A stretch of DNA of 64,000 nucleotides from Terriglobia bacterium (GTDB lineage Bacteria > Acidobacteriota > Terriglobia > Terriglobales > Acidobacteriaceae). Positions 46,457 through 63,844 of the stretch are shown here, in pieces. Both the position numbers and the translations under genes were made by a program. The stretch is from NCBI GenBank assembly GCA_020072645.1, contig JAIQGK010000008.1, positions 62,001-126,000 of the forward strand, read 5' to 3'. Numbering within the stretch: the first letter of the stretch is position 1; the number at the start of each line of letters is the position of its first letter. The notes beneath the pieces are model-generated. The model searched no databases. It was not told where the DNA came from and saw only the letters and a list, made by a program, of their open reading frames with translations.

Positions 46457-48946
46457 TTATTTAGCGTTCAGAGTTACCGTAAACGAGTTGTTTGCGGGGT
46501 TCGTGTCAGTGCCGCTGAAACTAGCGGTCCCAGTGGTGGCAAGCGAACCGGCCTGAACCACGTTTACGTTTTCGGTCACGATCATCGTTGCGGCCGCAGC
46601 CAGTGAAGGCGCGTTGCACGTGATGGTGCCGCTGGTGCCCAGAGCGGGACCGGTGCAGGTTCCCACACTGGTATTGACAGATGCAAGCGTCGTACCGGGA
46701 GACATCGTGATCGTAAAGCTCAGTGCATTAGCCACTTGGTTCCCGGAATTCTTGATCTGCCACGTCAGGGTGTCAGCTGATTTCACAGCCGGACCACCAT
46801 TCTGCGCCGAACCAGTGACCTGAACATCGGTCGTGGTTTGTGGAGCAGAAATGGATGTCGTGGCCGAAGCGGTATCGTCTGCCGGCGTTGGATCAGTGAT
46901 CGGGCTACCGGCTGCATCCCTCATTGACACGGTGGCTTTGTTCGTGGTCTGCGCCGTCAGGCGCAGGACCAGAGTCACGGTTGCGCTTTTGCTCCCTGCA
47001 ATCGCGCCCAGGTTGCAATTGATGGTACCTGCCGCGGATGTGCAGGTGCCCTGGCTGGGAGTCACAGATACAAGCGCAGCTCCGCCTGTAGTGGGCCAGG
47101 TGTCAGAGACAAGCGCGTCTGGAATGGTTGACGTTGCGCTGTTGTTCACTGTGATTGTGTAGCTGGCATTGGCGCCGGAATTCACCGATGCCGGCCCGAC
47201 GTCAGTAATGGATGCATCCTGCGGCACGGCATTAATCTGCGGTGTCACCGCATTAGAGGGCGCAGATTCAGCGCTGTTGCCCACCGCGTTGGCTGCATGC
47301 ACAGTGAATGTATACGTGGTCCCGTTGGTGAGACCAGTTACGGCGGCGCCGGTGCAGGTAGCGCAGGCACTGGCAGTGATTCCGGAGGGGGCTCCGTTCA
47401 CCCGTGCGGTCACAGTGTATCCAGTGATCGCTGAGCCTCCGTCAGAAGCCGAAGCAGTCCAGGCGACCTGGGCCGAAGCATCGCCAGCAATGGCTGAGAC
47501 ATTGGTTGGAGCCGATGGCGCCGTTGGAGCAAACGGAGTTACGCTGTTGCTGGGCGCAGAGAACGGTCCGGTGCCCACGGAGTCAGTGGCTGCCACTTCA
47601 AATTGGTAGGTGACTCCGTTGGTCAATCCCGTAACCACCACAGAAGTAGGAACAATGGTTGTGCCCGGAGTCGGGCCTACAGTAACGTCCGGTACCAGAA
47701 TGCCATTCGAAGCAAATGAGTTGTGCACCGTGTAGCTGGTAATCTTCTGCCCATCTGGAGCCGGATTCCAGCTTACAGTTGCCTGTGCGTTACCAGCCGT
47801 CGCCGTGACGTTGATCGGAGCGCCAGGCAAAGCTGGCGGCGGGGGATTTGGCAGCACCTGCCACCAGTGCCCGGAGCCGGGAATGTTGCCGGCACTGGGA
47901 TCATCGCCTACAAATAGCACCTCGGCGGTCGGATTAAAGACGTCCAGACCAAAGCCGGTGGCAAGATTGAAGTTGGTGGCGTATGACGCGTTGACGGTAG
48001 TCCCGGCGGGGGTGACCGATACCCGGCTGATCACGGAACCATTGGTGTAGTAGAGGTTCTGACCATTCAGGTCCGGGTACGCCTGATCGCCGATCATTGT
48101 TGTCGGCGTCGGGATTTGGCCCGCCAGGATGTTCTGGCCTGTGCAGACGCTGAAGTTGTTGGCGGCTGTAAAGCACGTATCGGCATTGTGGACAACAAAG
48201 GCCGAGAAGCCGTCACCGCCGTACAGGTCATGGCCGATCCAGCCGAGACCAAAATTCTTCCTTCCATCAGGGCTGTTGATCACATCATTCTGGACGTTGT
48301 TGCAGGGCAGCGGATTAGTTTGCGGGGAGAGGATGCGAACGACATTGCCGCTCCGAAGCGACGCCAAATACAGATTGCCATCCGGTCCCAAAGCCGCCGA
48401 ATTCGGACCCACGAGACTCGTTTGGCAACCGACGCCTGATTGGCTGCTGACCAGAACCTCGATATTGACCGGGTCCACAACGCCGTGACCGGCGTCAGAG
48501 CCGGGCAGGAAGTGCATGCGAACAGCCTCGCTTGCCGTGGCCGTAATGTTCGGAATGTAGAGGTCGTTTGTGGTGCGATCAAACGCGATTTCGCCGGGCT
48601 TGAACTGGGTTGCGCCGATGAAATTGATGCAAGTGTTCCTGTTCACCGTGTAAGGGCCGGCGGTATCCAGATCGGGATCGTAGCGGCAGAGGCCCAGAAT
48701 TTCATCGCCGCCCCAGAAATGGCGGAAATGCTGGCCGGTTGCAGGGTTGATGCCGGTCCCGGTCAGGACAATTCCGCCGCCGGGCGCGGTGATACTTGAA
48801 GCAAATTGAACGGTGGTTGTAGTCTGCGCGCTTGCTGTAACAGCCACCAGAGATAACATCAGCACAAGGCCGATCCAGAAGTGGGCATGTTGCCTGACAC
48901 CACCCTGTACGTTTTGCGATGTAGCTTGGAAACTCGTTGTTTTCAT
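46457..48946 (-). CDS. secreted propeller-like/FN3/DUF11 protein, paralogue 2
   Basis: ATG 48946 (MKTTSFQATSQ), with GGAAGGG 7 bp upstream, gives 829 residues; a frame open to 49120 would run through the operator at 49025 and is rejected. The signal peptide is WIGLVLMLSLVAVTASAQ. Order of domains is as in paralogue 1: propeller-like part (LGPDGNLYLASLRSGNVVRIL), two FN3 (TVSWNPAPDGQKITSYTVHN) and two DUF11-like domains ending FSGTDTNPANNSFTVTLNAK. The end is nearly identical to the other copies, pointing to duplication. An ATATATCG, N5, CGATATAT palindrome is 90 bp upstream of the start. Confidence 0.82.
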   Translation of the reverse strand: MKTTSFQATSQNVQGGVRQHAHFWIGLVLMLSLVAVTASAQTTTTVQFASSITAPGGGIVLTGTGINPATGQHFRHFWGGDEILGLCRYDPDLDTAGPYTVNRNTCINFIGATQFKPGEIAFDRTTNDLYIPNITATASEAVRMHFLPGSDAGHGVVDPVNIEVLVSSQSGVGCQTSLVGPNSAALGPDGNLYLASLRSGNVVRILSPQTNPLPCNNVQNDVINSPDGRKNFGLGWIGHDLYGGDGFSAFVVHNADTCFTAANNFSVCTGQNILAGQIPTPTTMIGDQAYPDLNGQNLYYTNGSVISRVSVTPAGTTVNASYATNFNLATGFGLDVFNPTAEVLFVGDDPSAGNIPGSGHWWQVLPNPPPPALPGAPINVTATAGNAQATVSWNPAPDGQKITSYTVHNSFASNGILVPDVTVGPTPGTTIVPTSVVVTGLTNGVTYQFEVAATDSVGTGPFSAPSNSVTPFAPTAPSAPTNVSAIAGDASAQVAWTASASDGGSAITGYTVTARVNGAPSGITASACATCTGAAVTGLTNGTTYTFTVHAANAVGNSAESAPSNAVTPQINAVPQDASITDVGPASVNSGANASYTITVNNSATSTIPDALVSDTWPTTGGAALVSVTPSQGTCTSAAGTINCNLGAIAGSKSATVTLVLRLTAQTTNKATVSMRDAAGSPITDPTPADDTASATTSISAPQTTTDVQVTGSAQNGGPAVKSADTLTWQIKNSGNQVANALSFTITMSPGTTLASVNTSVGTCTGPALGTSGTITCNAPSLAAAATMIVTENVNVVQAGSLATTGTASFSGTDTNPANNSFTVTLNAK

Positions 48947-49571
48947 GTGCATTCCCTTCCAATCTCCTGGCCTCGGCCAAGGAGACACGCGAGTGAAATT
49001 TCTTCCCCGCAGTTTTTCCGTTCTTATATATCGCTTGACGATATATATTTTGAGACACACGCCTCCGGACGCAAATACGCCATCGGCATGCTTTCGCGGT
49101 GGTGCAAGCCATCCAGGCACTCAGCTCAAGATGAGCTGCGCCGGAAAGAGTGGACCATTACACGTTCCCGGAGAACGGATCCGCAGGAGTTTTGTCTTGA
49201 TCTTGCTTCGGGCTTGATCAAAACCGGCAGAGGCCACTTCCGTCACGTTGCGACTTGCCGGGTTAATCTCCGCCCCGTTCACTACCGCACCGCCCGACGG
49301 CGCGGTAGATCCCGGGGCGAACTGAAGATCGAGAAGAAACAGCTCTCACCCGCATACTGCACACGGCTCGTGGACTTGCTTTGTGAACAGTACGCGAACA
49401 ACTATGTAGCGCTGCGCCGATTCTATTCCGCGGCGTGCCGTGCTACAAAATAAGAACCAGTGACTTTGCTTTCTATAGGAAAAGACTCGCGAAAGATAAA
49501 ACTGGGTCACTTGGATGAGAGTATTTAAAACCATAGTCTGGTACTAAGAACCACGCGCTTGCGCTGGTGCA
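48947..49571. other. intergenic region upstream of paralogue 2
   Basis: About 625 bp. It holds the palindromic operator at 49025-49047 and, on the minus strand, TATATAAGAA next to it as a possible -10. In 49320-49440 a plus-strand stretch translates as LKIEKKQLSPAYCTRLVDLL and then EQYANNYVALRRFYSA, which looks protein-like, but it has no start or known family and may be a decayed fragment. Confidence 0.4.
49025..49047. promoter_or_regulatory. palindromic operator, ATATATCG-N5-CGATATAT
   Basis: Left arm 49026-49033, spacer CTTGA 49034-49038, right arm 49039-49046 are perfectly complementary, extended by one further T-A pair (49025/49047). The centre is 90 bp upstream of the start of the paralogue 2 gene. 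The same core with a 5-bp spacer occurs at 50399, 59871 and 61249. Confidence 0.65.
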
Positions 49572-50300
49572 TCAAGCCGCAGTGACGTTGCCTTTGATGA
49601 GACGTCTGCTGAGTGGAGAGCCAGTCTCTTGTTGCAGCTTCATGATCGGATGCAAAGAATGACACGCGTCACAATGCGTCAGCATGGGAGCGAGAAATTC
49701 GCGCAACTTGCGCCGCGCGCGACGCAGACGGCTCATCGCGTTGGCTTCAGTAATACCAAGCTTACGCGCAGCTTCGGCGATGCTTGATCCGCCTGCGCCT
49801 GCGAGTTCCCAGACTTCACGATAGTTGTCTCGCAAGCTGGCAACGGCATGCAGCAGCGCACTGTGTAATTCCACTTCTTCCACTGACGCCAATGGATCCG
49901 GGCGCGGATCGGCCAGCACTTCGCGCATGCCTGATTCTCCTTCTTCCTGCTGATAGTGTGGTTCAAGCGGTTCGAGCAGATGCTTGCGGCTCTTTCGCAA
50001 CCGCGTGCGCGCAGCATTCCGCGCGATTTGCAAGACCCAGTGACCGAAACAATCGCTCGACCGGATGTTCTTCAGATTGAGCATGACCTTCAATGCGGTG
50101 TCCTGGATCACGTCTTCTGCTTCGGCGTGGTCGCGCAGGATGGCCAAAGCAACTGCTTTGATTCGCGGAAGATGCGTCGCCAGAAGAACTGGCAGCAACT
50201 CTGTTTCGCCGGATTGTACGCGGCGGATGAGTTCTACTTCCAAAAGTACTGTGGGGCAATTATCCTGAAGGGCAGGATACACTTCACCTGGGGAGACCAT
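49572..50300 (-). CDS. ECF sigma factor A
   Basis: ATG 50300 gives 242 residues. Sigma region 2: LPRIKAVALAILRDHAEAEDVIQDTALKVM is the recognisable stretch (shown in parts AEAEDVIQDTALKVM, FGHWVLQIARNAARTRLRK). Region 4: LRDNYREVWELAGAGG, then LGITEANAMSRLRRARRKL. After region 4 a tail with HCDACHSLHP carries CxxC plus His, which could bind zinc or sense redox; no separate anti-sigma gene is adjacent. It is near-identical over long stretches to sigma factor B (59984). Both have the same untranslated leader (AGAAGTAGGGATGTATTTA) just before the start codon, where the frame differs between them, showing that the leader is not coding. Confidence 0.88.
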   Translation of the reverse strand: MVSPGEVYPALQDNCPTVLLEVELIRRVQSGETELLPVLLATHLPRIKAVALAILRDHAEAEDVIQDTALKVMLNLKNIRSSDCFGHWVLQIARNAARTRLRKSRKHLLEPLEPHYQQEEGESGMREVLADPRPDPLASVEEVELHSALLHAVASLRDNYREVWELAGAGGSSIAEAARKLGITEANAMSRLRRARRKLREFLAPMLTHCDACHSLHPIMKLQQETGSPLSRRLIKGNVTAA

Positions 50301-50943
50301 GCTGTAAATACATCCCTACTTCTGGCCCGGCACTGGCTATGGATTCCGGAAAGATCAATAGCTTTCATCTCATCGGTGACGTAAGTCTATGAAAGGAGTA
50401 TCGCTTCACGACATTAAAAGATCACTGTTTTTATTTACAGAAAAGATCAACAGAATGCTTCAGAAAGTTGAGGGTGGTGCAGCCTCATTCCCCCAAAAAT
50501 ATACCCTGACGATAATTTATTTTTTTATTCCATTTTCAGAACAAGAATAGACAATTCTGAGTGTTTATTTTTATTAAGGCTTGAGCCCACTTTGGGCAAT
50601 CACTTTCAGGACTGGTAACAAAAAAATTACCATTGTTTTGGGTGCACCGATTTTGTTTATTCTCCCTCTACTACTGCGGTTTTTGTCCGGCTCCCTCAAA
50701 ATATGATTCGGCAGGCTTAGTAAGCTTACGAAGTTGTATTGAACGAGGCTGGCAATCGCACGGACTAAGCAGGTGTTAGTTGCCCTTAGTTTACAAAATG
50801 CAATCATGGAAACGTTGCTCTCGCGATTTCCTGGTCCATGCCTACTAGTCTATGTTTTTTGTCGGCTATATATCCCTCCTCTTCTAGCAATGCTTGGATT
50901 TGTTTAGTACATCCACTGTGGCCGTGTGACTGTACATACTAAT
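50301..50943. other. intergenic region upstream of ECF sigma A
   Basis: About 640 bp; very AT-rich between about 50410 and 50640. It contains the leader shared with the other sigma gene (50303-50325) and the operator-like repeat at 50399-50413. No gene was identified; short frames on either strand lack ribosome-binding sites and family similarity. Confidence 0.45.
50399..50413. promoter_or_regulatory. operator-like inverted repeat, TATCG-N5-CGACA
   Basis: TATCG (50399-50403), spacer CTTCA, CGACA (50409-50413). The core TCG-N5-CGA is symmetric, with one mismatch further out. The spacer differs from that at 49034 by one base. The centre (50406) is 106 bp upstream of the sigma A start, the same distance as in the sigma B and paralogue 3 genes. 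Confidence 0.55.
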
Positions 50944-51012
50944 GCGGCTGCCGAATCGCGGGGTCTCCAGCAGACCCCATGTTGGTCTGCTGGTGCGGAC
51001 ACGGCAGCCCGC
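50944..51012 (-). terminator. nested hairpin behind the copper/haem cluster
   Basis: An inner perfect 10-bp stem CCAGCAGACC (50967-50976)/GGTCTGCTGG (50984-50993) sits inside outer arms GCGGCTGCCG (50944-50953) and CGGCAGCCCGC (51002-51012, one bulge). It begins 8 bp beyond the stop of the minus-strand gene at 51020. The outer arms share the GGCTGCCG core with the hairpins at 43124 and 46387. Confidence 0.65.
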
Positions 51013-51019
51013 GTCTGTT

Positions 51020-53518
51020 CTACTGCGTTACTTTCGTTACGCCAGACGTTGCCTTGCCTCCAGCATTGGAAGTGATGGTCACCAGCGTCGGCTGAGTTAC
51101 ACCCGTAAAGATGATTGTGTAATTGTTAGGGACAGGAGGGCTCGTGGGCCCCATGACCCCAGTATAAGGTTGGCCTGTTGCGGGATCGGTGACATTCAGT
51201 GTGCATGTCAGCTGGACGTTGGGCGTGTTATCGGTTGCGTTAACCGTGAGCTGCGCCTTGCCGGTGCGATACGTCACCGAGGTTATCGTGATGGAGTCCA
51301 CCACCGTATTCACGGTCACGCCGACTGAGGCACTCGGCGACACGAGCCCGGAGGCTGAACTTGTGGCAGTCACACTGAATGTGAATGTTTGCGGACTGGT
51401 AAAGGCAGGCACGCTCGTACTGAAGGTCTGTTGTGCTCCGTTAGTTCCTGCGACCGGCGTAAGCGTAATGCCTTGCGGAGCCACCCACGTATAAGTAAGG
51501 GTTCCGTTTGCCGGATCCACGCCGCTGGCAGAGAGTGTTACCGTTGCAAAGCTCGCTACCGGGTTGGCGGGACTTGAGCTGGCACTGACCGACGGAACTG
51601 CGGGCCCTGGAGGCGGAGTAATAGGAACGCTCACCGTGGCGGTTTCCGGTGTCGTGGTGTTTCCTCCTCCCACAGTGACTTGGAAAGTAAGGTTAGTATT
51701 CGCTGCGACCGTCGGCGCCGTAAATGTGGAAGTCATTGCGCCCGGCGTGGAGAGCGTTACTACAGGATCGCCGCTGTTCACTATCTGTTTCCAGGCGTAC
51801 GGTCCATCGCTCGGCGTGCTGCCCGCCGCAGTTAACGTCACCTGAGTGCCGGCCACAATTGGACTGGCAGCAGTTGTGTAGCTCGCAACCGGGTTTGCCG
51901 GAGGAGCTGTGCCTGTGGGCCAGGTTGTGCAGGTCAGAGCAGGCGCTGCAGCGCCGGGCCAGGGATTAAGCTGCCCAATCGGCTGGTTGGCAAAGCTGCC
52001 CCATGGTCCTGAACCGTTGACCAGAAATGTGATGTCACTGAAGTCCAGCGGGACGGGAGGATCGCCAACGCCCAGATTTTCAGGAAAGATGAAGGTGAAG
52101 TTGGGTGCCTGATAACGCCCCGCGATGATTCCAAGAGTCTGGTTGTAAACTGTCGGCGGTGGATAATCAATCTGCACGCCGACGGTGCGCGCAGGGGGGA
52201 GAAAATTTCCGCCTGTCGGAAGCCAGCGGAATCGTCCCTGCACTCCGGCAAAGGGTGGTCCTGCTTCAGGCGTAAATTCAAAAGCCCAGGGCGCTCTATC
52301 TTTAATTATGCCGTTGCAATCCTGATCGACGGCGAAAATGTCCACCGGACGGCTGGAGTCCGTAGTGAACCCTTCTACCCTGGCTTTTGATGTTGCTTCC
52401 TGCGGAAACGCGGGGTTCGGAACTCCCGGAGCGCCTTGCAGCAGTACATCAATTGCAATGTAAGCAGGATCGTTGCCAGGAGAGGTATAGATTCCTACAT
52501 TGTCGATAACCGTGTGTGCAGAGATGATGCGAGCTCCATTCACATCCATTAGCGTTCCCGCATACGTAACGTAGTCACCCACTTCAAAGGGAGCGAAGAC
52601 CGACGAGTCTGTTGGCTGACTGAAACCAGAAACGGAAGAGCCGTATGGATCCATGGTGAATTTCATCAGCGGATTGCCCGATGCATCACGTGGACGGTTT
52701 TTTTGCGGGCACAGTGGATCGTTGCCCGTGGCGGGGTCCTGCCGTGGAATGCACATGGGAAACGCCGTTTGCGCGCGAACGGTCGGATTATCTTCATCGA
52801 TCGAGAAACGCACGTCAGGAGACTTGCCGATGCTGAAGCGGCCAAGTGGGTCGTTGATTTGGATTTTGTTGCCGTTCACCACCATGATGCCGTTGGCATA
52901 ATCCAATGACTCAATGAATCCCTGGCTCGAGTTCAAGGATTGCTGCGCAATGAAGATGAGTCCGGCAATGTAAGTTCCATTCACAATGTTCCCCTGGATA
53001 TGCGCTTCAAATGTCCCGGGGAGCCGCGCAGTGTCCGCCATTGCCAGGCCGCTCTCGCTTCCAGGGGCGAGAGGGTTGTATTCAAACACTTCTTCCCAAG
53101 TCAGCGTGTTTGCCGGCATTTGAAGAATGGTGTTCTGCGGAACACGGACCACATGCCCGTTGAGCTGAATCCAGCCGCCTGCCGATTTGCACCCTGCAGG
53201 CATTGGCGGATTCGTCACGGAGGGATTGCTGTTCGGCGTACAGACCGCATCGACTGACGCGAACTGTATGAAACCGGTCATGTCAAAAGGCGCTACCCCT
53301 CCCTGAGAGGCAGGCATTTTCGCCGGCTCCGGCGGTATGGTTGGTGTTTGCGCTGATGCAGCGATTGCGGTCAACATCAGCAGCGTGATTGCTAATGTGA
53401 GTAATCCGGAAGTACCAAATCGTTTCGTTTTCAATTGTTCGTACCGTCCCATCCGTTGATATTTGCGAGATTTTGGTTGCTCCTGGGGCGTGCTGAGTGG
53501 AACTATGAATCCACTCAA
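51020..53518 (-). CDS. large secreted protein with PKD/Ig-like C-terminal domains, last gene of the copper/haem cluster
   Basis: The frame opens with TTG 53518, overlapping the stop of the MauG-like gene (TTGA), giving 832 residues; ATG 53452 (MGRYEQLKTKRFG) would give 810 and places the signal peptide (LLTLAITLLMLTAIAASAQ) normally. The N-terminal 550 residues are unfamiliar, with GGWIQLNGHVVRVPQNTILQMPANTLTW and repeated beta segments, including VGDYVTYAGTLMDVNGARIISAHTV (an OB-like strand pattern). The C-terminal part has PKD/Ig-like repeats (NPVASYTTAASPIVAGTQVTL, VSASSSPANPVASFATVTLSA). Probably a cell-surface partner of the oxidase and dihaem protein encoded upstream. Confidence 0.75.
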   Translation of the reverse strand: MSGFIVPLSTPQEQPKSRKYQRMGRYEQLKTKRFGTSGLLTLAITLLMLTAIAASAQTPTIPPEPAKMPASQGGVAPFDMTGFIQFASVDAVCTPNSNPSVTNPPMPAGCKSAGGWIQLNGHVVRVPQNTILQMPANTLTWEEVFEYNPLAPGSESGLAMADTARLPGTFEAHIQGNIVNGTYIAGLIFIAQQSLNSSQGFIESLDYANGIMVVNGNKIQINDPLGRFSIGKSPDVRFSIDEDNPTVRAQTAFPMCIPRQDPATGNDPLCPQKNRPRDASGNPLMKFTMDPYGSSVSGFSQPTDSSVFAPFEVGDYVTYAGTLMDVNGARIISAHTVIDNVGIYTSPGNDPAYIAIDVLLQGAPGVPNPAFPQEATSKARVEGFTTDSSRPVDIFAVDQDCNGIIKDRAPWAFEFTPEAGPPFAGVQGRFRWLPTGGNFLPPARTVGVQIDYPPPTVYNQTLGIIAGRYQAPNFTFIFPENLGVGDPPVPLDFSDITFLVNGSGPWGSFANQPIGQLNPWPGAAAPALTCTTWPTGTAPPANPVASYTTAASPIVAGTQVTLTAAGSTPSDGPYAWKQIVNSGDPVVTLSTPGAMTSTFTAPTVAANTNLTFQVTVGGGNTTTPETATVSVPITPPPGPAVPSVSASSSPANPVASFATVTLSASGVDPANGTLTYTWVAPQGITLTPVAGTNGAQQTFSTSVPAFTSPQTFTFSVTATSSASGLVSPSASVGVTVNTVVDSITITSVTYRTGKAQLTVNATDNTPNVQLTCTLNVTDPATGQPYTGVMGPTSPPVPNNYTIIFTGVTQPTLVTITSNAGGKATSGVTKVTQ

Positions 53519-55917
53519 TGCGCCTGCAGGTTTTGTAAGAATGTTGGTATCGCTGTCCCGCCAGTCGCCCCGGTGGCAGGAATATCCAGCAACTGATCGG
53601 TTGCTCGCCCCGGGTTTTTGGCATCGTTCTGTACCGGGTAGCCGGTATTCGGATCCGGCGGGTGCCCATTCGGCACAAACAACTCTGGGTGATCAAAAGG
53701 AGCCGACTGATTCACTACTCGCGGATCCGTGAGCGCATTGCGGAGGAAGTCCACAAGGTCCGTCTTCTCCTGCATCGTGAGGCCGAGGGGAACAATGTTG
53801 GGATCGATCAGCGGAATCTGGTCGAAGCCATCCGGAAAATCTCCGCCGCGGTTGTAGAACTCCACCACCTGCTCAAGCGTCAGCTGTCCGCCGTTGTGGA
53901 AGTAGGGAGCGGTGAGAGCTATGTCCCGCAGCATGGGCGTTTTGAGAAACCCCTTTTGTGCAACATCGTCATAGCAGCTCAGGGGCGCCGCAGTGATGCC
54001 GTCTCCGGGCCGGCCGGGCACCATCACGGAGTATGTGGCATCGTTGCAGACGCGCTCGCGCTGCATTTCGGATTGCGAAAGCGGCTGTCCGACAACACCG
54101 TCCACATCAGCCAGACCTATGTCTTCGACCCCGGGACGCACTCCTATGTTGTAGAACCCATTGTCATAGACGCGCACATTGAAATCGCCCATGACCATGC
54201 GCTCCAGCGGCATGGTGGAGACATTTGCAACTGAGGCGTTCGAGAGTTCCGGCCCACCGTGGCAGGTGATGCAGCGGCCCTTGGTCTGGAAGAGCAGGAG
54301 CCCGTGCAGTTGTCCCTGCGTAAGCGGAAGAGAGCCGACCGAGTAACTGATGTTGATTGGATAAGCAGCTGGCGGTGGCACGTCGAACTGGATCGACACC
54401 GTTCCCGTTGAATAGTTGATCGTTCCGCTGGTGATCCCCACGCCGCTCACCTGTCCTGCGCCATCGTCGAACCCGAATACCTCCTGGTCACTGGCATCCA
54501 GAGTCGGGTTGAGCTCTACAACAGAAATGGTCATGGGATCAACGCCGGCGGGCAGCTGGATGGTGTAGAAATTTTTCAGGCTGTCGCCTTGCAGCACGTA
54601 TGTTTGCTGCTGGCTGAGGTACTGGTCCAGCGGAGTCTGGTTTGCAACCAGCGTGCTTTCATAAAGCTGGATGGCAATGCCCCAGAACAGAGAGAAGTTG
54701 TATTCCATTTGCGAATACGGCTTCTTCGCCACGTCAGAGGGACAGTTCTGGTTCAGGTCAGGATCAATAATGGTTTCCGTGCCGCTGTCGGAAACGCAAA
54801 CCTGCAGTCGCGATTGCCACCATTTCGGCTGGAACGCGGTTTTGATCAGTGTCTCGTAGCCGGTATCAAGTCCCAGGCCGGTATTGCTGCTGTCCTTGCC
54901 GAGTTTGCTGTCAGAGGTCTTTACCTTTTGGTTCGAGAGCGCAAGAGGGACATTACCCGACAAAGGATCCACCGTTAGCATCTTCCGCCCTATGTCGCGG
55001 AAATTGCGATTTGCAGCCGACATTTCAAACGACGCTCCTGGCGGCCCCAGAGCCTGCGAACACAGGGAAGAGTTCTGGAGCCGTACCAGGGTGGGCGTGA
55101 GCGGCGCGGATGTAGTGCTCGCCGCGAAGAAATGTGACGTTGTATCGCGTTCGCCAAACGGGTTGGCGCCGTTACAAGTATTCTGGGCGCGACCGTCCCA
55201 AAAGCTGCGATAGTTGAAAATGGCATTGATCACGCTGGGCGTATTGCGCGGCTCTACCTGCCGGGTGTCGATTTTCTTGGTGGGGTCTGTGGGGTCTGGG
55301 TAGAAGAAGATCGAGTCAGAAGTCACCGTAGTGTTTTCAGTTCCGTTGAACAAGCGGACGCTGTCAAACGCCTGGGAAAACTGTCCTTGTGAGCCCACAA
55401 TGTCATTCACATCAGAAATGGGATTGTTGCGGGTGTCGACGTTGCCTTGCTTGTGCAGAGGGAAATCACCGTCATGGTATCCGCCGAATCCGGCGCCCGC
55501 AGTTCCAGGATTCAATTTGTAATTGGGATAAATTGCACCGTTCAGATGCACCCCCATCTGGAAAGTGGTCTCCCCCGCCCTGATTCCGGGGTCCACCTCA
55601 TTCACTGCGCGGCTGTCAGCGCCCGCATTGAAATGGCATGAGGCGCATGCAGTCATGCCGTCGCTGCCGGCCTGCATGTCCCAGAAAAGTGATTTGCCCA
55701 ATTCAATGGCGGCGGCTTTATCCGCAACATAGTCGCTCAATCCCGGAACATCAGGGATGGGAACCGTACTTAGGGCCGCGAGAGGCCGGATAGGAACTAC
55801 TTTCGGAGGTGTTGCAGTGCTTTGGGCCCGCACATGACCGTAATAACCGAGTGCGAAAATCGTAGTAATGGCTAACACTGCGATTCGCAGCGCCCGATAA
55901 TATTTGTGTGAAGACAT
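53515..55917 (-). CDS. dihaem cytochrome c peroxidase/MauG-like protein
   Basis: ATG 55917 (GAGG 6 bp upstream) gives 800 residues with signal peptide (ALRIAVLAITTIFALGYYGHVRA). Two c-type haem sites are visible: CASCH (about residue 92) and CITCH (about 553), the arrangement of bacterial CCP/MauG enzymes. RNTPSVINAIFNYRSFWDGRA and FLKTPMLRDIALTAPYFHNG are hallmark segments. It is about twice the size of CcpA, with a 200-residue insert including a beta-rich section between the haem domains. It is periplasmic and probably oxidises a protein or metal substrate with the copper enzymes encoded upstream. Confidence 0.9.
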   Translation of the reverse strand: MSSHKYYRALRIAVLAITTIFALGYYGHVRAQSTATPPKVVPIRPLAALSTVPIPDVPGLSDYVADKAAAIELGKSLFWDMQAGSDGMTACASCHFNAGADSRAVNEVDPGIRAGETTFQMGVHLNGAIYPNYKLNPGTAGAGFGGYHDGDFPLHKQGNVDTRNNPISDVNDIVGSQGQFSQAFDSVRLFNGTENTTVTSDSIFFYPDPTDPTKKIDTRQVEPRNTPSVINAIFNYRSFWDGRAQNTCNGANPFGERDTTSHFFAASTTSAPLTPTLVRLQNSSLCSQALGPPGASFEMSAANRNFRDIGRKMLTVDPLSGNVPLALSNQKVKTSDSKLGKDSSNTGLGLDTGYETLIKTAFQPKWWQSRLQVCVSDSGTETIIDPDLNQNCPSDVAKKPYSQMEYNFSLFWGIAIQLYESTLVANQTPLDQYLSQQQTYVLQGDSLKNFYTIQLPAGVDPMTISVVELNPTLDASDQEVFGFDDGAGQVSGVGITSGTINYSTGTVSIQFDVPPPAAYPINISYSVGSLPLTQGQLHGLLLFQTKGRCITCHGGPELSNASVANVSTMPLERMVMGDFNVRVYDNGFYNIGVRPGVEDIGLADVDGVVGQPLSQSEMQRERVCNDATYSVMVPGRPGDGITAAPLSCYDDVAQKGFLKTPMLRDIALTAPYFHNGGQLTLEQVVEFYNRGGDFPDGFDQIPLIDPNIVPLGLTMQEKTDLVDFLRNALTDPRVVNQSAPFDHPELFVPNGHPPDPNTGYPVQNDAKNPGRATDQLLDIPATGATGGTAIPTFLQNLQAH

Positions 55918-56111
55918 TCTCATCCTCGTGCTCCGTTGTTGGCTTCACAGGAACAATCGCGGCATAGATGCCGGCGATTATGAAAGCGGCGCTCCGTTCT
56001 TTTGGAGAGCGCAACTTGCATACGGAAGTCCTGTGAGCCAGTTCGTTGAAACTCTTAAATTTTGCGTGCCACCAAGACGCGCGATGGAGGCCATTCTGTG
56101 GAAGGAATCCG

Positions 56112-57119
56112 CTAGCGATTCCTGTCGGCAACCTGCCGGCGCAAACCTTCGGTACCCTGATGTTGTGATTGTGTCTCCCGACGGGTCGCGCTTTCTTCCT
56201 GAAGGAATTTGAGAATCGCCATAACGTCTCCGTCGGCGAGCCTGAGGTTAGGCATGCGTACCTGCTTGTACTGCCTGAATAGAGCCAGAGCAGTAGGGTC
56301 CTTTTCGGCAATTACTTTGTCGGGCTCCTGAATAAAGCGCTTCAGCCAGTCACGGTTTCGTGCGGTTGTCACTCCAAGAAGATCGGGGCCAATCTTGACG
56401 CCATGTCCAACCGTATGGCAGGCGGCGCAATGGGTGGAGAAGACGTACTGGCCTGGATTCAGCTTGACGGGCTTTAGATCAGCGGAAGTTGTCTGCTTCT
56501 GGGTAGCGGAGTATTTCCAGTTGTTCAGCCAGTCACCAATCAGCGTGGCCAGGAAGCGCGGGTTGTCAGTGGCGCCATTTCGCATCCATTGCCCTGTGGG
56601 TTCGCTGCCGATCAATACGCTAGGGCTATGGCCATCACGATCATTCGGATCAGGATCGGTGTAGAGCCCGATTTTCTTGCTCAGCTGGTCAATATCCTCT
56701 TTTTTCCCCGTCAGGAACAGCCAGCCCGGGCCGGCGTGATACTTTTCCGCGTACTCTCTGAGTACCGCGGGAGTATCATGCTGCGGATCAATGCTTATGG
56801 AGTAGAAAAAAATCTGCTTGCCCACAGCATCGCCAAGCAATTTTTGCACCTGCGCCAGCCTGGCGGTCTCCAGCGGGCATGAGTCCACGCAGTGGGTATA
56901 AATAAGGTCGATGACTACGATCTTTCCGCGAACAAGATCATCATAGAACTTCACCTTCTTGCCATCCTGAGTGACCAGTTCGGTATTGGGGAAGTAATTG
57001 GCTCCCCAATGGGCGTTGTCGAACGCTTTTGCCGCGGGCGAGCGAAAGATGAAAATCAGGGCCGCAAAAGACAAGAGGGCGGCCAAGGAAAGCCCCATAC
57101 GGAATTTTGGGTGAAACAT
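56112..57119 (-). CDS. SCO1/SenC copper chaperone fused to cytochrome c
   Basis: ATG 57119 with AGGAG 7 bp upstream gives 335 residues; the frame extends to 57188 without support. After an N-terminal anchor/signal (LSLAALLSFAALIFIF) comes a thioredoxin-fold SCO domain with the copper CxxxC (THCVDSCP, about residue 77-81) and His in DGHSPSVLIG. The C-terminal domain is a monohaem cytochrome c: CAACH (about 237) and axial Met in VRMPNLRL. SCO proteins deliver copper or handle thiols; the fused haem suggests electron transfer. Located between the oxidase and MauG-like genes, it may mature or feed the multicopper oxidase. Confidence 0.92.
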   Translation of the reverse strand: MFHPKFRMGLSLAALLSFAALIFIFRSPAAKAFDNAHWGANYFPNTELVTQDGKKVKFYDDLVRGKIVVIDLIYTHCVDSCPLETARLAQVQKLLGDAVGKQIFFYSISIDPQHDTPAVLREYAEKYHAGPGWLFLTGKKEDIDQLSKKIGLYTDPDPNDRDGHSPSVLIGSEPTGQWMRNGATDNPRFLATLIGDWLNNWKYSATQKQTTSADLKPVKLNPGQYVFSTHCAACHTVGHGVKIGPDLLGVTTARNRDWLKRFIQEPDKVIAEKDPTALALFRQYKQVRMPNLRLADGDVMAILKFLQEESATRRETQSQHQGTEGLRRQVADRNR

Positions 57120-57143
57120 GAATTGCTCCTGAGTAGGAAAATT

Positions 57144-57182
57144 GCGAGCCGCCCCGCCCTGGTTTGGGCCAGGGCGGCTCGC
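57144..57182 (-). other. strong intercistronic hairpin between oxidase and SCO genes
   Basis: GCGAGCC (57144-57150), a 5-nt bulge, GCCCTGG (57156-57162), loop, CCAGGGC (57169-57175), GGCTCGC (57176-57182): 14 bp of pairing. It lies 22 bp past the oxidase stop and 25 bp before the SCO start, without a T-tract. It could stabilise the oxidase mRNA end or set differential expression within the operon. Confidence 0.6.
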
Positions 57183-57203
57183 TTTCATTCGGCGCCAAGC
57201 GTG

Positions 57204-59456
57204 TTAATACGCTGTTGGCAGCACCTCATCGGGGGTTTGGAAGGTCACGCCGGTCGGATGCGGGACGGGCGTGGGCAGGGGACGCAAGAAAGGCGCTCCG
57301 CTGTCATCCAGTTCCCATCGCAGCAACATGGCGTTGTCCTCGTGCACGGTGTTGTGGCAGTGCTCCATGAACATGCCGCCCCAATCACGGAACTGCATGG
57401 TGAGCGTTACGCTGCCGTTGGGACGCAGCCGATACACGTCTTTGCGTCCCAGTTCCCAGTCGGGTACCGTCACAGGTACGCCCGCCACGGTTCGTGAGAG
57501 GATCTGGCCTTCTTCAAAGTGGATGTGAATCGGGTGATCCCATCCACCACCGCCGTTGACCAGGTGCCACACTTCTCGTGTGCCGAATTTAGGCGCGGCA
57601 GAGAGCCGGCCGAAGTCTGCATTGAGCATTTTGCCGCCGTCGGTCGCAATGCCCCATGGTCCGGTCTGGCCACCCGCGCCAGTGATAAAGGAAGTAATTG
57701 GATCGCTTTGATTCTGCGATGCTCCACTGCCGAACACGAACGTCCGCTCGCGCGCAATCGGGATGTTCGAGAGGTCAGGGTTCGGGATCATCGTGGCAGG
57801 CACCTGGCTCTGGTCAGGCACTGCCGGATCACGCACGATCCGGAATTCCATGAACTTGCCGACGCAGGGATCAGAAGACTTCCCGGCCAGCGCGTCAGCA
57901 AGCGTGCGATCTTGTGCGGGCTTCTTGCCATCCTGATGCTCGCAAAGGTTCACAAACCATACCTTGCTCCCGACGCCGTAGCGCGAGAAATCAATCACAA
58001 TGTCATAGCGCTCGGCAATACCTTGTTCGTCGAGCGCGGTGAGCTGCACAGGATGGGGCAGCAGGTTTCCGTCATTCGCGATCTGCATGAATGTGGAACC
58101 ATCACTCAGGCAGATCTTGAAGAACCGGGAAACGCTGGCGTTCAGGATGCGGAAACGATACTTGCGCCGTTCCACTTCGAAATACGGCTTGTAGGTCAAA
58201 TTGACTGTCATGGCATCGCCCAGAAAGCCATCAAACTGGAAAATATCCATGAACAGCTGTCCATTGCTGTCCCAGGCTTTATCGGCAAGCATGAGGTTGA
58301 CGTCATAGTCCAGGTTCCCCCAGCCTTTGCCGTTCGCAGAGCCGCTGGGCAACCGCAGATTCACACCGTCGTTGACCGTTTCGTCTCCGCGATCAAGGCC
58401 GCTGTAAATATTGAACATGGCCGCGTTGCCTTTGTAGACGTTCTGCGATGTGAAGCTGAACATGTGATCGTGGAACCAGTGCGTTGACATGGTTTCATGC
58501 CAGTCCCCCGGCACCTTGTTCAGTCCACCGTTATCGGCGGGACTGCTGGCCATGGGATCCGTAGCATCAGTGTTCACGCTGAAGATGCCGGCAAGAACGA
58601 TGGGCCAGTGGTAATCATAGAACTGGCCCGGGAAGAAATACGCTCCCGTAAAACCGTCATTCTCTGCTCCGTGGTGGCCGTTGTGCTCGTGAGTGGAAAT
58701 CGTGTTTCGGCCAAAGCCATTGTTTTGGGTTATATCGAACGGCAGGCCGTTGTGGTGACGGAACAAGATGGGCTCGCCGTAACGGCCTTGCACGAGCTTG
58801 GGAGGAATTGTTCCGTTAAACGTCCAAACGGAGTTTGCATCTTGCGTGGGCATCCCAGGATGGAATTTCAGCGGTATATTGGCGGTGGGATTAATGCCGG
58901 AATTAAGATTGGAAGCGACTCCTGGGTTGTAAACCGTATTGGTAGTTGCACCTAACTGCGTCATTTCCGCGGCAACCTGCGGCGGAAATTTGTCGAACTG
59001 CTGATGTGCCCAGATTGCTCCTGGTGGTCGCCCTTCAATGGGACCAGTCAATCCAGTCTGGCCGCCAACGAGTGCGGGATTCAGCGGCTGCTGGGTTTGA
59101 TTGGCTTCCGCAGTCGGCACAGGATTCAGCGAACTTAGCGGGTTGCGTGAAATTACGTCAAAGCGTGGCATGGGCGTGGTGAATGCCTGAACGCCAAAGA
59201 GAGGACTAGCCGGCATGCCCGTGGGAATGCTGCTGGATCCCCCACTCCCGCCGCTGGCGTATGCTACAAAAGGGCTCAGACCACTGATCGGCGCCATCAT
59301 GCCAGCCGTGGTAAATAGTCCCCATTTCATCAGGTCTCGACGCGAGACCTTGCCTTGGGAATAAGCTTTCATGATCTCAGCCCGGTTCTTGCGCGCATTC
59401 TCTGCTTCTCGCACGCGGGCTTTCGATGCATTCTTTGGAAGATAGAAGATACTCAT
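57204..59456 (-). CDS. multicopper oxidase, Tat-exported
   Basis: ATG 59456 gives 750 residues starting MSIFYLPKNASKARVREAEN. A twin-arginine signal VSRRDLMKWGLFTTAG lies about 40 residues in. Copper ligands of a laccase-type enzyme are all present: STHEHNGHHG (type 3/2 HxH), HWFHDHMFS (HxH), HPIHIHFEEG (HxxHxH) and HCHNTVHEDNAMLLRWEL (HCHxxxH with Met, type 1). Domains 1 and 3 are far apart, as in CotA/bilirubin-oxidase-like or larger metal-oxidising enzymes. Substrate could be Mn(II), Cu(I) or phenolics. First gene of the minus-strand cluster with SCO-cytochrome and MauG-like genes; divergent from ECF sigma B. Confidence 0.93.
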   Translation of the reverse strand: MSIFYLPKNASKARVREAENARKNRAEIMKAYSQGKVSRRDLMKWGLFTTAGMMAPISGLSPFVAYASGGSGGSSSIPTGMPASPLFGVQAFTTPMPRFDVISRNPLSSLNPVPTAEANQTQQPLNPALVGGQTGLTGPIEGRPPGAIWAHQQFDKFPPQVAAEMTQLGATTNTVYNPGVASNLNSGINPTANIPLKFHPGMPTQDANSVWTFNGTIPPKLVQGRYGEPILFRHHNGLPFDITQNNGFGRNTISTHEHNGHHGAENDGFTGAYFFPGQFYDYHWPIVLAGIFSVNTDATDPMASSPADNGGLNKVPGDWHETMSTHWFHDHMFSFTSQNVYKGNAAMFNIYSGLDRGDETVNDGVNLRLPSGSANGKGWGNLDYDVNLMLADKAWDSNGQLFMDIFQFDGFLGDAMTVNLTYKPYFEVERRKYRFRILNASVSRFFKICLSDGSTFMQIANDGNLLPHPVQLTALDEQGIAERYDIVIDFSRYGVGSKVWFVNLCEHQDGKKPAQDRTLADALAGKSSDPCVGKFMEFRIVRDPAVPDQSQVPATMIPNPDLSNIPIARERTFVFGSGASQNQSDPITSFITGAGGQTGPWGIATDGGKMLNADFGRLSAAPKFGTREVWHLVNGGGGWDHPIHIHFEEGQILSRTVAGVPVTVPDWELGRKDVYRLRPNGSVTLTMQFRDWGGMFMEHCHNTVHEDNAMLLRWELDDSGAPFLRPLPTPVPHPTGVTFQTPDEVLPTAY

Positions 59457-59983
59457 TGTGGCTGCACTCCTGTAGACCACCGCGATCAATTGAGATCGAA
59501 TGATGCGGCGAGGTTGAGAGCTGGCAACCGGATTTCCGTCGTCCGGCGCCTAGCTCATCGCACTTGGGTAAAGACAACTCGACAGTAAACAACAGTCGTG
59601 CCAGAAGACTGTCTAGTCATCGCCTGTGAATCCAGATGTTGATCGGTGAGGATCTCACCGTTGTGTTGATTGTGGCGTACAGAGAACAAGACTCAGCGGC
59701 AACTCACATTGGGTCACCTGCCTTCCCCCGATGACCCCACAAAATCATTCCTAGGCTGGTGTTACGGACAATTACAGCGCTCGGGAATATCAAAAAAGAT
59801 TTAGAACGGAAAGTCCGTTTACCAAAGCTGAGTTCGACGAGCGTTTTCAAAAATAAAACAAAACAAATATATATCGTGACACGATATTTGCTTTGTGATA
59901 GGCTTCCCACACGCTATCCAATAGAAGGTGACTCTTTCGAGTCAATGGCCAGCGCGGGGCCAGAAGTAGGGATGTATTTAACC
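59457..59983. other. divergent promoter region between oxidase and ECF sigma B
   Basis: About 530 bp with no gene supported. AGGAG at about 59468-59472 (minus) precedes the oxidase start. It contains the operator at 59871-59887 and, 11 bp beyond it, GATAGGCT, also found beyond the operator at 61249, as a possible -10 region. A frame open from 59759 into sigma B is judged non-coding because it covers the operator. Confidence 0.5.
59871..59887. promoter_or_regulatory. perfect palindromic operator in front of ECF sigma B
   Basis: ATATCGTG (59871-59878), A, CACGATAT (59880-59887): a perfect 17-bp palindrome, equivalent to ATATCG-N5-CGATAT. The centre is 105 bp upstream of the preferred start (59984). 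Confidence 0.7.
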
Positions 59984-60712
59984 ATGGGTTTCGCAGGTGA
60001 AGTGTTTCCAGCCGTTCAGGAGAATTGCCCCACCGTTCTTTTAGAAGTTGAACTTATCCGCCGGATACAGTCCGGCGAAACGGATTTGCTGCCAGATCTT
60101 CTGGCGCCACATCTTCCCCGCATCAAGTCACTTGCTCTGGCTATCCTGCGCGATCATGCCGAAGCAGAAGACGTGATCCAGGACACAGCATTAAAGGTGA
60201 TGCTGCATTTGAAAAGCATCCAGTCAACCGATTCCTTTGGTCACTGGGTCCTGCAAATCGCGCGCAACGCCGCGCGCACGCGGCTGCGCAAGAACCGGAA
60301 GCATCTGTTCGAGCCGCTTGACCGTCAAGGCGATGAAGACGAGGGTTCATGCGCATGTGCCGTGCCCGCCGATCCACGCCCCGGTCCGCTGGCGTCAGTG
60401 GAAGAGGTGGAAATGCAGCAGGCGCTGCTGCATGCAGTCGCGAGCTTGCGAGACAACTACCGTAAAGTTTGGGAACTCGCCGGTGCAGGCGGGTCAGGTA
60501 TCGCCGAGACCGCGCGCAAACTCGGTATCACCGAGGCCAACGCAATGAGCCGTCTGCGACGCGCGCGACGCAAATTGCGGGAAATCCTGGCGCCCATGCT
60601 GACGCAATGTGCCGTTTGCCGTCGGCCTCTGCACGCACAAGAGAAGCTGAAGAAAGAGACTGATTTTACACTTAGCAGTGCTGAGAGCATGGAGAACGAT
60701 GCGGCAGCGTGA
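59984..60712 (+). CDS. ECF sigma factor B
   Basis: ATG 59984 (MGFAGEVFPAVQENCPTVLLE), chosen by alignment with sigma A, gives 242 residues. ATGs at 59972 and 59945 are in frame but fall in the leader that is out of frame in sigma A. Region 2 (AEAEDVIQDTALKVM, FGHWVLQIARNAARTRLRK) and region 4 (LRDNYRKVWELAGAGG, LGITEANAMSRLRRARRKL) match sigma A almost residue for residue. The tail has QCAVCRRPLHA (CxxC) in place of HCDACHSLHP. No anti-sigma gene is adjacent. Together the two factors flank the copper/haem cluster and probably control it and the secreted paralogues. Confidence 0.88.
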   Translation: MGFAGEVFPAVQENCPTVLLEVELIRRIQSGETDLLPDLLAPHLPRIKSLALAILRDHAEAEDVIQDTALKVMLHLKSIQSTDSFGHWVLQIARNAARTRLRKNRKHLFEPLDRQGDEDEGSCACAVPADPRPGPLASVEEVEMQQALLHAVASLRDNYRKVWELAGAGGSGIAETARKLGITEANAMSRLRRARRKLREILAPMLTQCAVCRRPLHAQEKLKKETDFTLSSAESMENDAAA

Positions 60713-61360
60713 TACAGATATGCTGCAAACCCGTAGGAATGACCGTGCTCCAAATTGGGAAAGACGATTCAAGGCGCGAACGATAAGGTCACGTCATGAT
60801 TAATAGTAGGTCGTAAGGACTAGATCGGATCCACCGGCATGTACTCTGAGTCGCGACTCATTACGTCAAAAGTACACTGCATCAAAAAATTCTTAAGATT
60901 TTTAATGTTCCCCTATATCTAAAGTGCAAAAGTTTACTCTATCTAGATAGTTGTTCCGAGGGTCTGGCAGTGACAACCAATGCGGGTGCCGCGTTGGTTA
61001 CAGTCTGATTGCCACCGTCAATAGCCGCCCGACCTATTGTCTGGACGACCTTACGAATCCTGCTTCTCTAACCCGGCTTTGCGGGCGCCATGCTCATTCC
61101 TGAGCTTGGGTTCAAGAAATCGGCCACAAGATACATTGTGATTCTGCTGTGAAACAGCGGCGGCGAGAACTCATCTCGGCCGTCGATATGAACTAAGCAA
61201 CCTTTGCCGGACGGTGCCGCTGTTGTGTCCGCGAACTGCAAACAATACATCGTATTGCGATATGTATTGAGAAATGATAGGCTCGCGTTCAATTGAGAGA
61301 AATATTGTCCGAGCAGGCTCGAGGCGCATAGATAGATCGACCAAAGATACTTCCGGAGAA
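60713..61360. other. intergenic region upstream of paralogue 3
   Basis: About 650 bp, AT-rich around 60870-60960, where a perfect 12-bp palindrome CTATCTAGATAG lies at 60939-60950. The operator-like repeat at 61244-61268 is in its last part. No gene was supported. Confidence 0.45.
61244..61268. promoter_or_regulatory. operator-like inverted repeats in front of paralogue 3
   Basis: The core ATCG-TATTG-CGAT (61249-61261) is symmetric with a 5-bp spacer. A second, outer repeat AATACAT (61244-61250)/ATGTATT (61262-61268) is in a slightly different register. The core centre (61255) is 106 bp upstream of the preferred start at 61361. TGATAGGCT follows at about 61275, as in the sigma B region. Confidence 0.55.
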
Positions 61361-63844
61361 ATGGGACCCAATTTTGTGATGACAAACACCCCCGTATTTG
61401 ACTCCAGTTGGCAGTTCAGGATCTTCTCAAACGGCAAAAGAACCCTTGCAGCACTCATTGCCGTTTTTCTTCTTAACGTTTTCGTAATTAACATGGCTGG
61501 TGCTAACGCGCAAACCACAAGCACGAACCTTTTTGGAACCGGCTTAACGGCTCCCACGGGCGCTCAAGTCCTGAGTGGGACGGCGATCAATCCAACGACC
61601 GGTAATTCCGTCCGGCACGTCTGGGTAACCGATGCTGCTTTGGGACTGTGCCGCATTGATCCCGATATCGACACGCCTGGTGCTCACTCAATTAACCTGG
61701 CTACTTGTCTCGTATCTCAGGTCCGGCCAAGCATCCTGACGTTTGATCCTGAAAACAGCCTTCTGTACACGGCGGATACCGGCAAACTGGGCCTGGTGAG
61801 CCTGCATTATCTTTCCGCGGGTGATAACGGACAGGGATCGATTGACCAGCTTGGCATCACTGCCGTAGCAGTGAACTGCGGGATTTTCGGAAATCAGCCG
61901 GATAGTCTAGCGCTTGGACCTGATGCCGCCATGTATATCGGCTTCAGGAAGAACGGGAACATTGTCCGCGTACCCGCGCCGGACCGACAGACCGTTCCCT
62001 GCAGCGACGTTCAGAGTGTTGCCAACATCCCCAGCAATAAGCGTAACTTGGCTCTCGGATGGATGGGTCACACCTTGTTCGGCGTCGATACGATCTCTGC
62101 CTACGAGATCCCGGATGCAGACCAATGCAAAATTGCAAACAATGGCTGCACGGGAACCAGCGTTTTGCCGGTAACCGCCGGCGCTTCGCTAATGATCAGC
62201 GATCAACAGGGTACGTCTCTGAACGGAAACAATCTATTTTTCTCTGACGGCACGACCGTGACCCAGATAGCCAATGTGGCGATCGGGCTGAGTAATGCCC
62301 AGACCACTACAAACTATGGTGGCGCGGACTTCTCATTCATCAGCGCTCTGGCGCTGGATACTGTTGATCCGGCCAATCCAATCCTGTTCGTGGCGGATGA
62401 TCCCAGCAATGGAGTCACGCCGGGGAACGGAAGATTGTTCCAGGTTGTGCTCACTCCAGGGCCTGTCGCTCCTTCGACTCCTATTAATGTTAAGGCAACT
62501 GCGAGCGATGGGCAGGCTACAGTAAGCTGGACGGAACTCTCAGGCGGAGGCGCTGTTACCAGTTACACGGTGCATAATTCCTTCGCCTCGAATGGAATCA
62601 CAGTTCCCGACGTTATTGTCGCGCCGCCCGCAGGCAGCACAGTTCCACCCACCAGTGCATTGATTACGGGACTCATCAATGGCGTTACGTATCAATTCGA
62701 AGTCAGCGCGGCCAATGATATCGGCGTAAGCCCATTCTCGCTGCCGAGTAATTCGGTAACGCCACACGCCATCACGGTTCCTGGCGCGCCTACTGCGGTA
62801 ACCGCAAACGCCGGAAACGCGCAAGCCGGCGTTTCCTGGACCGCTCCAGCGGACGATGGTGGATCGCCAATTACGTCTTACACAGTGACCGCTCTGGTTG
62901 GAGGAATTGCAACTGGAACACCGGTCACGGTGGCGGCACCGGCAACCAGTGCGGTGGTCGCCGGACTTACGAACGGGACCACCTACACATTTATTGTTCA
63001 TGCAACCAACGGAATCGGCTCAGGGCCGGATTCGGCGCTCTCCAACGGCGTGACACCTTCAGTTTCGGCAGGACTACCCGATCTTAGTCTCGCCATTACC
63101 GGAGCCACTTCTGTCCCGACCGGATCGAATGTCATTTACACGCTCGCGGTCACCAACACCGGAGCCGGACCCGCGCCGGCCGTGGTGCTCAGCAATACGC
63201 TTCCCATATCGGGCGCGACCTTCGTATCGGTAAGTACAAGCCAGGGCGTTTGCACAGCAGGCGGCACTCTGATCAACTGCAATCTCGGAGCGCTCGACGT
63301 TAGCGTGGTTGCCAAAGTGACCATCACGCTCAACGTCACGGCGCAGATCACCGACTCAGCCAGTGTTCAGGCCTTCGATGCGACTGGCACCGCATTGACT
63401 GACCCCACACCGGCCAACAACAGCGCTTCCATTACTACTGTGATCGCTGCCCCAACGACGACAACTGACATCCAGGTTACCGGTTCACCGGCAAACGGTG
63501 GACCGAGCGTCAACACTGCCGATTTCATCAACTGGCAGGTCAGGAATAATCAGACTACTGTGGCCAACAACGTAGTGTTCGCCGCAACTCTGCCCAGCGG
63601 AGTGATCTACAGCTCGGTCAGCGGAAGCCTGGGAGTTACCTGCACCGGACCGGCGCCGGGAACGGCGGGCGGAACCGTCTCTTGCAGTTTGGCTAGCCTT
63701 GCTGGAAGCCAAACAATGCAGGTGACCTTGAACTTCACCGTAGCCGCAGCCGGTTCGCTGCCGTTTACCGGCTCTGCAACATTCGACGGAACAGACACGA
63801 ACCCTGCCAACAACTCAGCCGCGGTCGTCATCAACGCAAAATAA
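61361..63844 (+). CDS. secreted propeller-like/FN3/DUF11 protein, paralogue 3
   Basis: ATG 61361 (GGAG just upstream) gives 827 residues; an in-frame ATG at 61379 is possible and the frame is open from 61274. The signal peptide is LAALIAVFLLNVFVINMAGANAQ. Architecture is that of the genes at 43176 and 46457: propeller-like region (LGPDAAMYIGFRKNGNIVRV, LGWMGHTLFGVDTISAYEI), two FN3 domains (TVSWTELSGGGAVTSYTVHN, GYxVTALVGG-like) and two DUF11-like domains, ending FDGTDTNPANNSAAVVINAK. It is the most diverged copy in the propeller part. Followed by a canonical terminator. Confidence 0.82.
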   Translation: MGPNFVMTNTPVFDSSWQFRIFSNGKRTLAALIAVFLLNVFVINMAGANAQTTSTNLFGTGLTAPTGAQVLSGTAINPTTGNSVRHVWVTDAALGLCRIDPDIDTPGAHSINLATCLVSQVRPSILTFDPENSLLYTADTGKLGLVSLHYLSAGDNGQGSIDQLGITAVAVNCGIFGNQPDSLALGPDAAMYIGFRKNGNIVRVPAPDRQTVPCSDVQSVANIPSNKRNLALGWMGHTLFGVDTISAYEIPDADQCKIANNGCTGTSVLPVTAGASLMISDQQGTSLNGNNLFFSDGTTVTQIANVAIGLSNAQTTTNYGGADFSFISALALDTVDPANPILFVADDPSNGVTPGNGRLFQVVLTPGPVAPSTPINVKATASDGQATVSWTELSGGGAVTSYTVHNSFASNGITVPDVIVAPPAGSTVPPTSALITGLINGVTYQFEVSAANDIGVSPFSLPSNSVTPHAITVPGAPTAVTANAGNAQAGVSWTAPADDGGSPITSYTVTALVGGIATGTPVTVAAPATSAVVAGLTNGTTYTFIVHATNGIGSGPDSALSNGVTPSVSAGLPDLSLAITGATSVPTGSNVIYTLAVTNTGAGPAPAVVLSNTLPISGATFVSVSTSQGVCTAGGTLINCNLGALDVSVVAKVTITLNVTAQITDSASVQAFDATGTALTDPTPANNSASITTVIAAPTTTTDIQVTGSPANGGPSVNTADFINWQVRNNQTTVANNVVFAATLPSGVIYSSVSGSLGVTCTGPAPGTAGGTVSCSLASLAGSQTMQVTLNFTVAAAGSLPFTGSATFDGTDTNPANNSAAVVINAK

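Follow-up and report, generated by a model that had tools for sequence, protein, structure and literature searches.

The window, by which we mean the whole stretch of 64,000 nucleotides analysed, comes from an Acidobacteria-like soil bacterium and contains two genes for ECF sigma factors of 242 amino acids each, sigma A (49572–50300, minus strand) and sigma B (59984–60712, plus strand), which are 77% identical. Sigma A ends in a C-terminal tail with the pattern CxxCH...H, and sigma B carries a C-terminal CxxC...H together with CxC in the linker between regions 2 and 4; to judge from these cysteine and histidine residues, the tails are possibly metal- or redox-sensing. The gene content of the region includes no anti-sigma gene beside either sigma gene, and comprises a multicopper oxidase and an SCO1/cytochrome c gene. 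No close orthologues of the pair were detected in 60 related genomes (best match 41%), nor were close relatives found in a GTDB scan (best match 35%, in a set from which records near the window may be left out). Among the sigma homologues of the related genomes only one (L133) has cysteine in its tail, within a longer and different extension.

The multicopper oxidase gene (57204–59456, minus strand) is divergent from sigma B, and its paralogue MCO2 adjoins the gene of a MarR-family protein, MarR1, together with two operators of the type described below. This oxidase family reaches up to 8 copies per genome, with strong matches only in the genus of the window. The cluster at 51020–59456 comprises, besides the oxidase, an SCO1/cytochrome c fusion, a MauG-type di-haem peroxidase and a large secreted protein. 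Three further genes encode secreted proteins of a fibronectin III/DUF11 family, i.e., paralogue 1 (43176–45686, minus strand), paralogue 2 (46457–48952, minus strand; two fibronectin III and two DUF11 domains) and paralogue 3 (61379–63844, plus strand; starts at 61361 or 61274 are also possible). The family has 12 matches in the genome, several of them clustered on contig C7, and 0–7 in sister species.

The preliminary description placed four inverted repeats at 49026–49046, 50399–50413, 59871–59887 and 61249–61261, and all four are found at these positions. It also read all of them as ATCG-N5-CGAT, which is exact for three, the repeat at 50399–50413 being imperfect and ending in CGAC. Upstream of paralogue 2 (49026–49046, minus strand) the arms are perfect over 8 bp, ATATATCG-CTTGA-CGATATAT. 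The imperfect palindrome before sigma A, taken as 50398–50414 on the minus strand, is TATCG-CTTCA-CGACA, or ATGTCG-TGAAG-CGATAC in a gene-strand reading, and both of its arm changes recur in the marR operator of a relative (G012, locus L098). Sigma B is preceded by perfect 6-bp arms, ATATCG-TGACA-CGATAT (59871–59887, plus strand), and paralogue 3 by ACATCG-TATTG-CGATAT (61247–61263, plus strand), in which the core at 61249–61261 has perfect 4-bp arms, ATCG-TATTG-CGAT. Paralogue 1 has no such operator. A weak second palindrome, ATCTCGGCCGTCGATAT, precedes the paralogue 3 operator by 74 bp (61173–61189); its matrix score of 8.4 is in the chance range. A weak fifth site that had been suggested at 45795–45805 scores 3.1, which is noise, and was discarded.

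A fixed spacing had been proposed as well, with the centres 90, 106, 105 and 106 bp upstream of paralogue 2, sigma A, sigma B and paralogue 3, respectively. This stands for the sigma genes, where the centres are 106 bp (sigma A) and 105 bp (sigma B) upstream of the start, the latter being also 423 bp from the start of the divergent multicopper oxidase gene. For the paralogues the distance depends on the start chosen: 90 bp for paralogue 2 and 106 bp for paralogue 3, or 84 and 124 bp, respectively, if the in-frame ATG given by the gene caller is used. The equal distances at sigma A and sigma B are attributed to common descent, since their leaders align and are homologous. Site-to-start distances over the regulon vary from about 20 to 150 bp genome-wide, with 84–126 bp at most targets in the window and the genome, and a fixed distance is thus no general rule. 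A scan for consensus sigma-70 promoters near the sites gave nothing above chance; by eye, the palindromes before sigma B and paralogue 3 are followed closely by an extended −10-like element, TGATAGGCT, a placement in which the operator would cover the −35 region, as fits repression.

The full motif is ATATCG-Y-N-W-N-R-CGATAT, nearly all spacers having the form Y-N-W-N-R, which gives ATATCGYNWNRCGATAT. The bare ATCG-N5-CGAT pattern is too weak to serve as evidence, as it occurs 4 times in the window against 1.19 expected, once in an unrelated place (3555), and 128 times in the genome against 33 for a reversed control. The extended motif, assessed genome-wide by pattern searches and in selected stretches, is clearly non-random: TATCG-N5-CGATA is found 12 times in the 6.4-Mb genome and the 15-bp core TATCGYNWNRCGATA 9 times, in both cases against 0 for the reversed control, and the core occurs 91 times over 61 genomes against 15 for its control. 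The exact ATATCG-N5-CGATAT has 5 occurrences in the genome, two of which fall within the 12-kb part of the window that holds the four repeats. The preliminary description would have been refuted by a motif equally common in coding DNA, which is not the case: although about 86% of the genome is coding, all but one of the 9 exact TATCGYNWNRCGATA sites, i.e., 8, fall between genes (binomial P about 1e-6 with 14% non-coding DNA, or 1e-4 when this fraction is raised to 25% in view of base composition). The exact motif is absent from all 14 genomes of the neighbouring family f2, and the 9 exact sites in the genome of the window compare with 0–3 in each of eight sister species.

MarR proteins bind DNA as dimers, and a dimeric regulator encoded outside the window had been proposed for the repeats. 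This proposal gains support from the presence of the same palindrome upstream of orthologous MarR-family genes at 23 of 25 foreign loci. A search with MarR1 returned homologues in most of 60 related genomes, and the gene lies between purB and a ClC channel gene, usually in the order purB, palindrome, marR, ClC. With the palindrome required within 160 bp upstream of marR and no more than two of its 12 positions mismatched, the 23 of 25 same-clade foreign loci compare with 45 of 10,000 shuffled upstream regions. The site sits over the start region of marR, about 20–70 bp from the start, and several of these sites have unpaired arm positions. The purB-marR-ClC neighbourhood, with the palindrome between purB and marR, is kept across the family (L084, L087–L115). 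Four marR loci examined in family f2 form a separate clade, and have neither the palindrome nor purB or ClC neighbours.

The genome of the window itself (G000) has two such genes. MarR2 (contig C1, 77.5 kb) is the conserved copy, with ATGTCGCGAGGCGATAT immediately before its start, and MarR1 (contig C4, 134 kb) is an extra copy that is divergent from MCO2, with two palindromes between them. Both proteins contain the MarR winged-helix domain (PF12802; 42.9 bits for MarR1 and 36.4 bits for MarR2, at a cut-off of 27), and their closest solved structures are YusO and OhrR. Both MarR genes of this subfamily thus have the motif adjacent, as do the 23 of 25 orthologous loci, while the ten other MarR_2 matches in the genome, which serve as a negative control, have no site of this class; among all 12 matches only MarR1 and MarR2 have a motif score above 9. 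Among the genus members examined, no other genome has two MarR genes of this type, and MarR1 branches outside the copies of the sister species.

When the whole 64-kb window was scored with a matrix derived solely from the 23 foreign marR operators, the four highest-ranking matches were the palindromes before sigma B (27.5), paralogue 2 (27.0), paralogue 3 (21.6) and sigma A (14.7), in this order, followed by a next match at 8.4 and a best coding match at 4.2. The training operators score 18.9–32.8, a range that includes three of the four window sites and lies above that of sigma A. The best scores of 20 random windows, a background that includes the sites themselves, span 6.3 to 16.3, so that the first three sites stand well clear, while that of sigma A has a marginal score which the best chance matches can reach. 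The latter site is supported instead by the arm changes that it has in common with the G012 marR operator and by the homology of its leader to that of sigma B. The window sites thus belong to the same operator class as the marR operators, and sites spotted by eye can be confirmed by a matrix derived from the regulator's own operators in relatives.

Beyond the window, the motif is linked in the genome to marR2, to MCO2 (two sites), to a cytochrome b561/molybdopterin protein divergent from a redoxin, to a cytochrome b/molybdopterin oxidoreductase operon behind a NarK-like transporter, to an enolase-type/SDR pair, to a TonB-type receptor region and to a small secreted protein. Of the 50 exact sites that the other genomes have away from marR, 33 fall between genes, and several targets are met in more than one genome: the ClC channel gene (G058, G051), a redoxin and/or DUF488 gene (own genome, G012, G023, G058), the cytochrome b/molybdopterin operon (own genome, G006) and the enolase/SDR pair, which has the same 126-bp distance in the own genome and in G006. 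The palindrome adjoins redoxin (AhpC/TSA) and DUF488 genes in several genera (L058, L237, L246, L265), and a NuoG-like molybdopterin protein is present at two of these loci. The common theme of the targets is redox and respiration, perhaps with a nitrate or anion link. Regulons comprising all multicopper oxidase paralogues or all fibronectin III/DUF11 paralogues were considered and rejected, as most copies have no site. Within the fibronectin III/DUF11 family only paralogues 2 and 3 of the window carry the operator, and because the other copies of both families lack the motif, the link is limited to the motif-bearing ones.

Taken together, the four palindromes very probably serve as operators for a MarR-family dimer whose gene lies elsewhere in the genome, and in this one lineage its regulon appears to have been extended to the sigma pair and to secreted proteins. 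The ancestral system would be the autoregulated purB-[operator]-marR-ClC-channel locus, present family-wide and partly beyond and represented here by MarR2, with MarR1 as a second, lineage-specific MarR beside MCO2. One or both MarR dimers would bind the 6-N5-6 palindromes before sigma A, sigma B and paralogues 2 and 3. A MarR dimer on a 17-bp palindrome most likely blocks transcription until a ligand or oxidant frees the protein, and the position of the marR site over the start region is as expected for autorepression. Sigma A and sigma B might then relay the signal to targets of their own in a two-step cascade.

The same operators and the same MarR could alternatively activate the sigma and paralogue genes, or act on them both as activator and as repressor. 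The distance of 84–126 bp between site and start at most targets, as compared with about 20–70 bp at marR, would fit such a role, and activation from a 6-N5-6 site over the −35 box is known for the MarR protein BhbR2 (PMC12016517); however, the TGATAGGCT element noted by eye downstream of the palindrome at sigma B and paralogue 3 suggests an operator over −35, and we consider activation unlikely. The palindromes might instead be stem-loops formed in the transcript, or remnants of sigma gene duplication, with no operator function, and the homology of the sigma A and sigma B leaders indeed means that two of the four sites are not independent. The sites at paralogues 2 and 3, marR, MCO2, the cytochrome and the redoxin are, however, unrelated outside the palindrome, several marR sites have arm positions that do not pair, and the marR palindrome is located over the start region and not in a leader, all of which makes this explanation highly improbable.

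A regulator from a different family has equally little in its favour. A TATCG-N5-CGATA site, TATCGATTTTCGATA, overlaps the possible start of a PadR-like gene at about 398.07 kb on contig C3 (L059), which could point to a PadR-family protein. The A...T spacer of this site, however, breaks the Y...R rule obeyed by nearly all others, the other eight PadR matches are without the motif (1 of 9 overall has it), and it is marR that the motif accompanies, in 23 of 25 foreign loci. PadR as the regulator was therefore rejected on account of the off-consensus spacer and the absence of the motif at the other PadR genes, and has only a very slight probability; TATCGATTTTCGATA may be the PadR-like gene's own operator. 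The PadR-like gene adjoins DoxX-type and ChrA chromate-transporter genes.

Returning to MarR-type operators as the preferred reading, a more far-reaching version is that a duplicated MarR repressor took over a genus-specific island of copper-oxidase and secreted-protein genes by way of operators placed before an orphan, metal- or redox-sensing ECF sigma pair. We put this forward tentatively and regard it as doubtful; if true, it would represent a switch in two tiers that dispenses with anti-sigma factors and differs from the sigma control circuits in the literature searched. As regards the sigma factors, the closest parallel considered is CorE, a copper-dependent ECF sigma factor with a Cys-rich C-terminal domain that is defined by four invariant cysteines (PMC3107203). 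Sigma A and sigma B resemble CorE in having no anti-sigma partner, a multicopper oxidase nearby and a Cys-bearing C-terminal tail. However, their tails have two cysteines each (CxxC with histidine), and they are not assigned to the CorE type because the four invariant cysteines are absent.

With respect to the regulator, MarR, OhrR, MexR and HucR are autoregulated MarR-family repressors. The proteins described here are similar to these in their MarR_2/MarR Pfam matches above cut-off, their small size and the palindrome at their own promoter, but differ in that two ECF sigma genes would belong to their regulon. BhbR2 of Pigmentiphaga kullae, which activates an aromatic degradation operon, has a footprinted 17-bp 6-N5-6 palindrome, TTGATT-N5-AATCAA (PMC12016517); the architecture is the same as that of the present motif, whereas the half-site differs. 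OsbR of Chromobacterium violaceum, of the OspR/MgrA group, is a MarR-type regulator of oxidative stress and nitrate respiration genes (PMC8567585), and the redox, NarK-like and molybdopterin targets found here resemble its targets; the main text on OsbR describes no palindrome or motif, and sigma factors are not among its highlighted targets (PMC8567585). The literature searched revealed neither the operator ATATCG-N5-CGATAT nor the purB/ClC neighbourhood. The regulator is very probably a MarR protein of a conserved, apparently uncharacterised acidobacterial type. For this phylum, in which the literature searched has no characterised MarR regulon, a candidate regulator can now be named together with an operator that lends itself to testing, and respiration and redox genes are tied to a conserved MarR/ClC-channel locus. 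The growth of a regulon in one lineage is also documented, seen in more exact sites, a second regulator gene and the orphan sigma pair. The regulon is new but of a known kind, and it is the lineage-specific extension to the orphan ECF sigma pair that is unusual.
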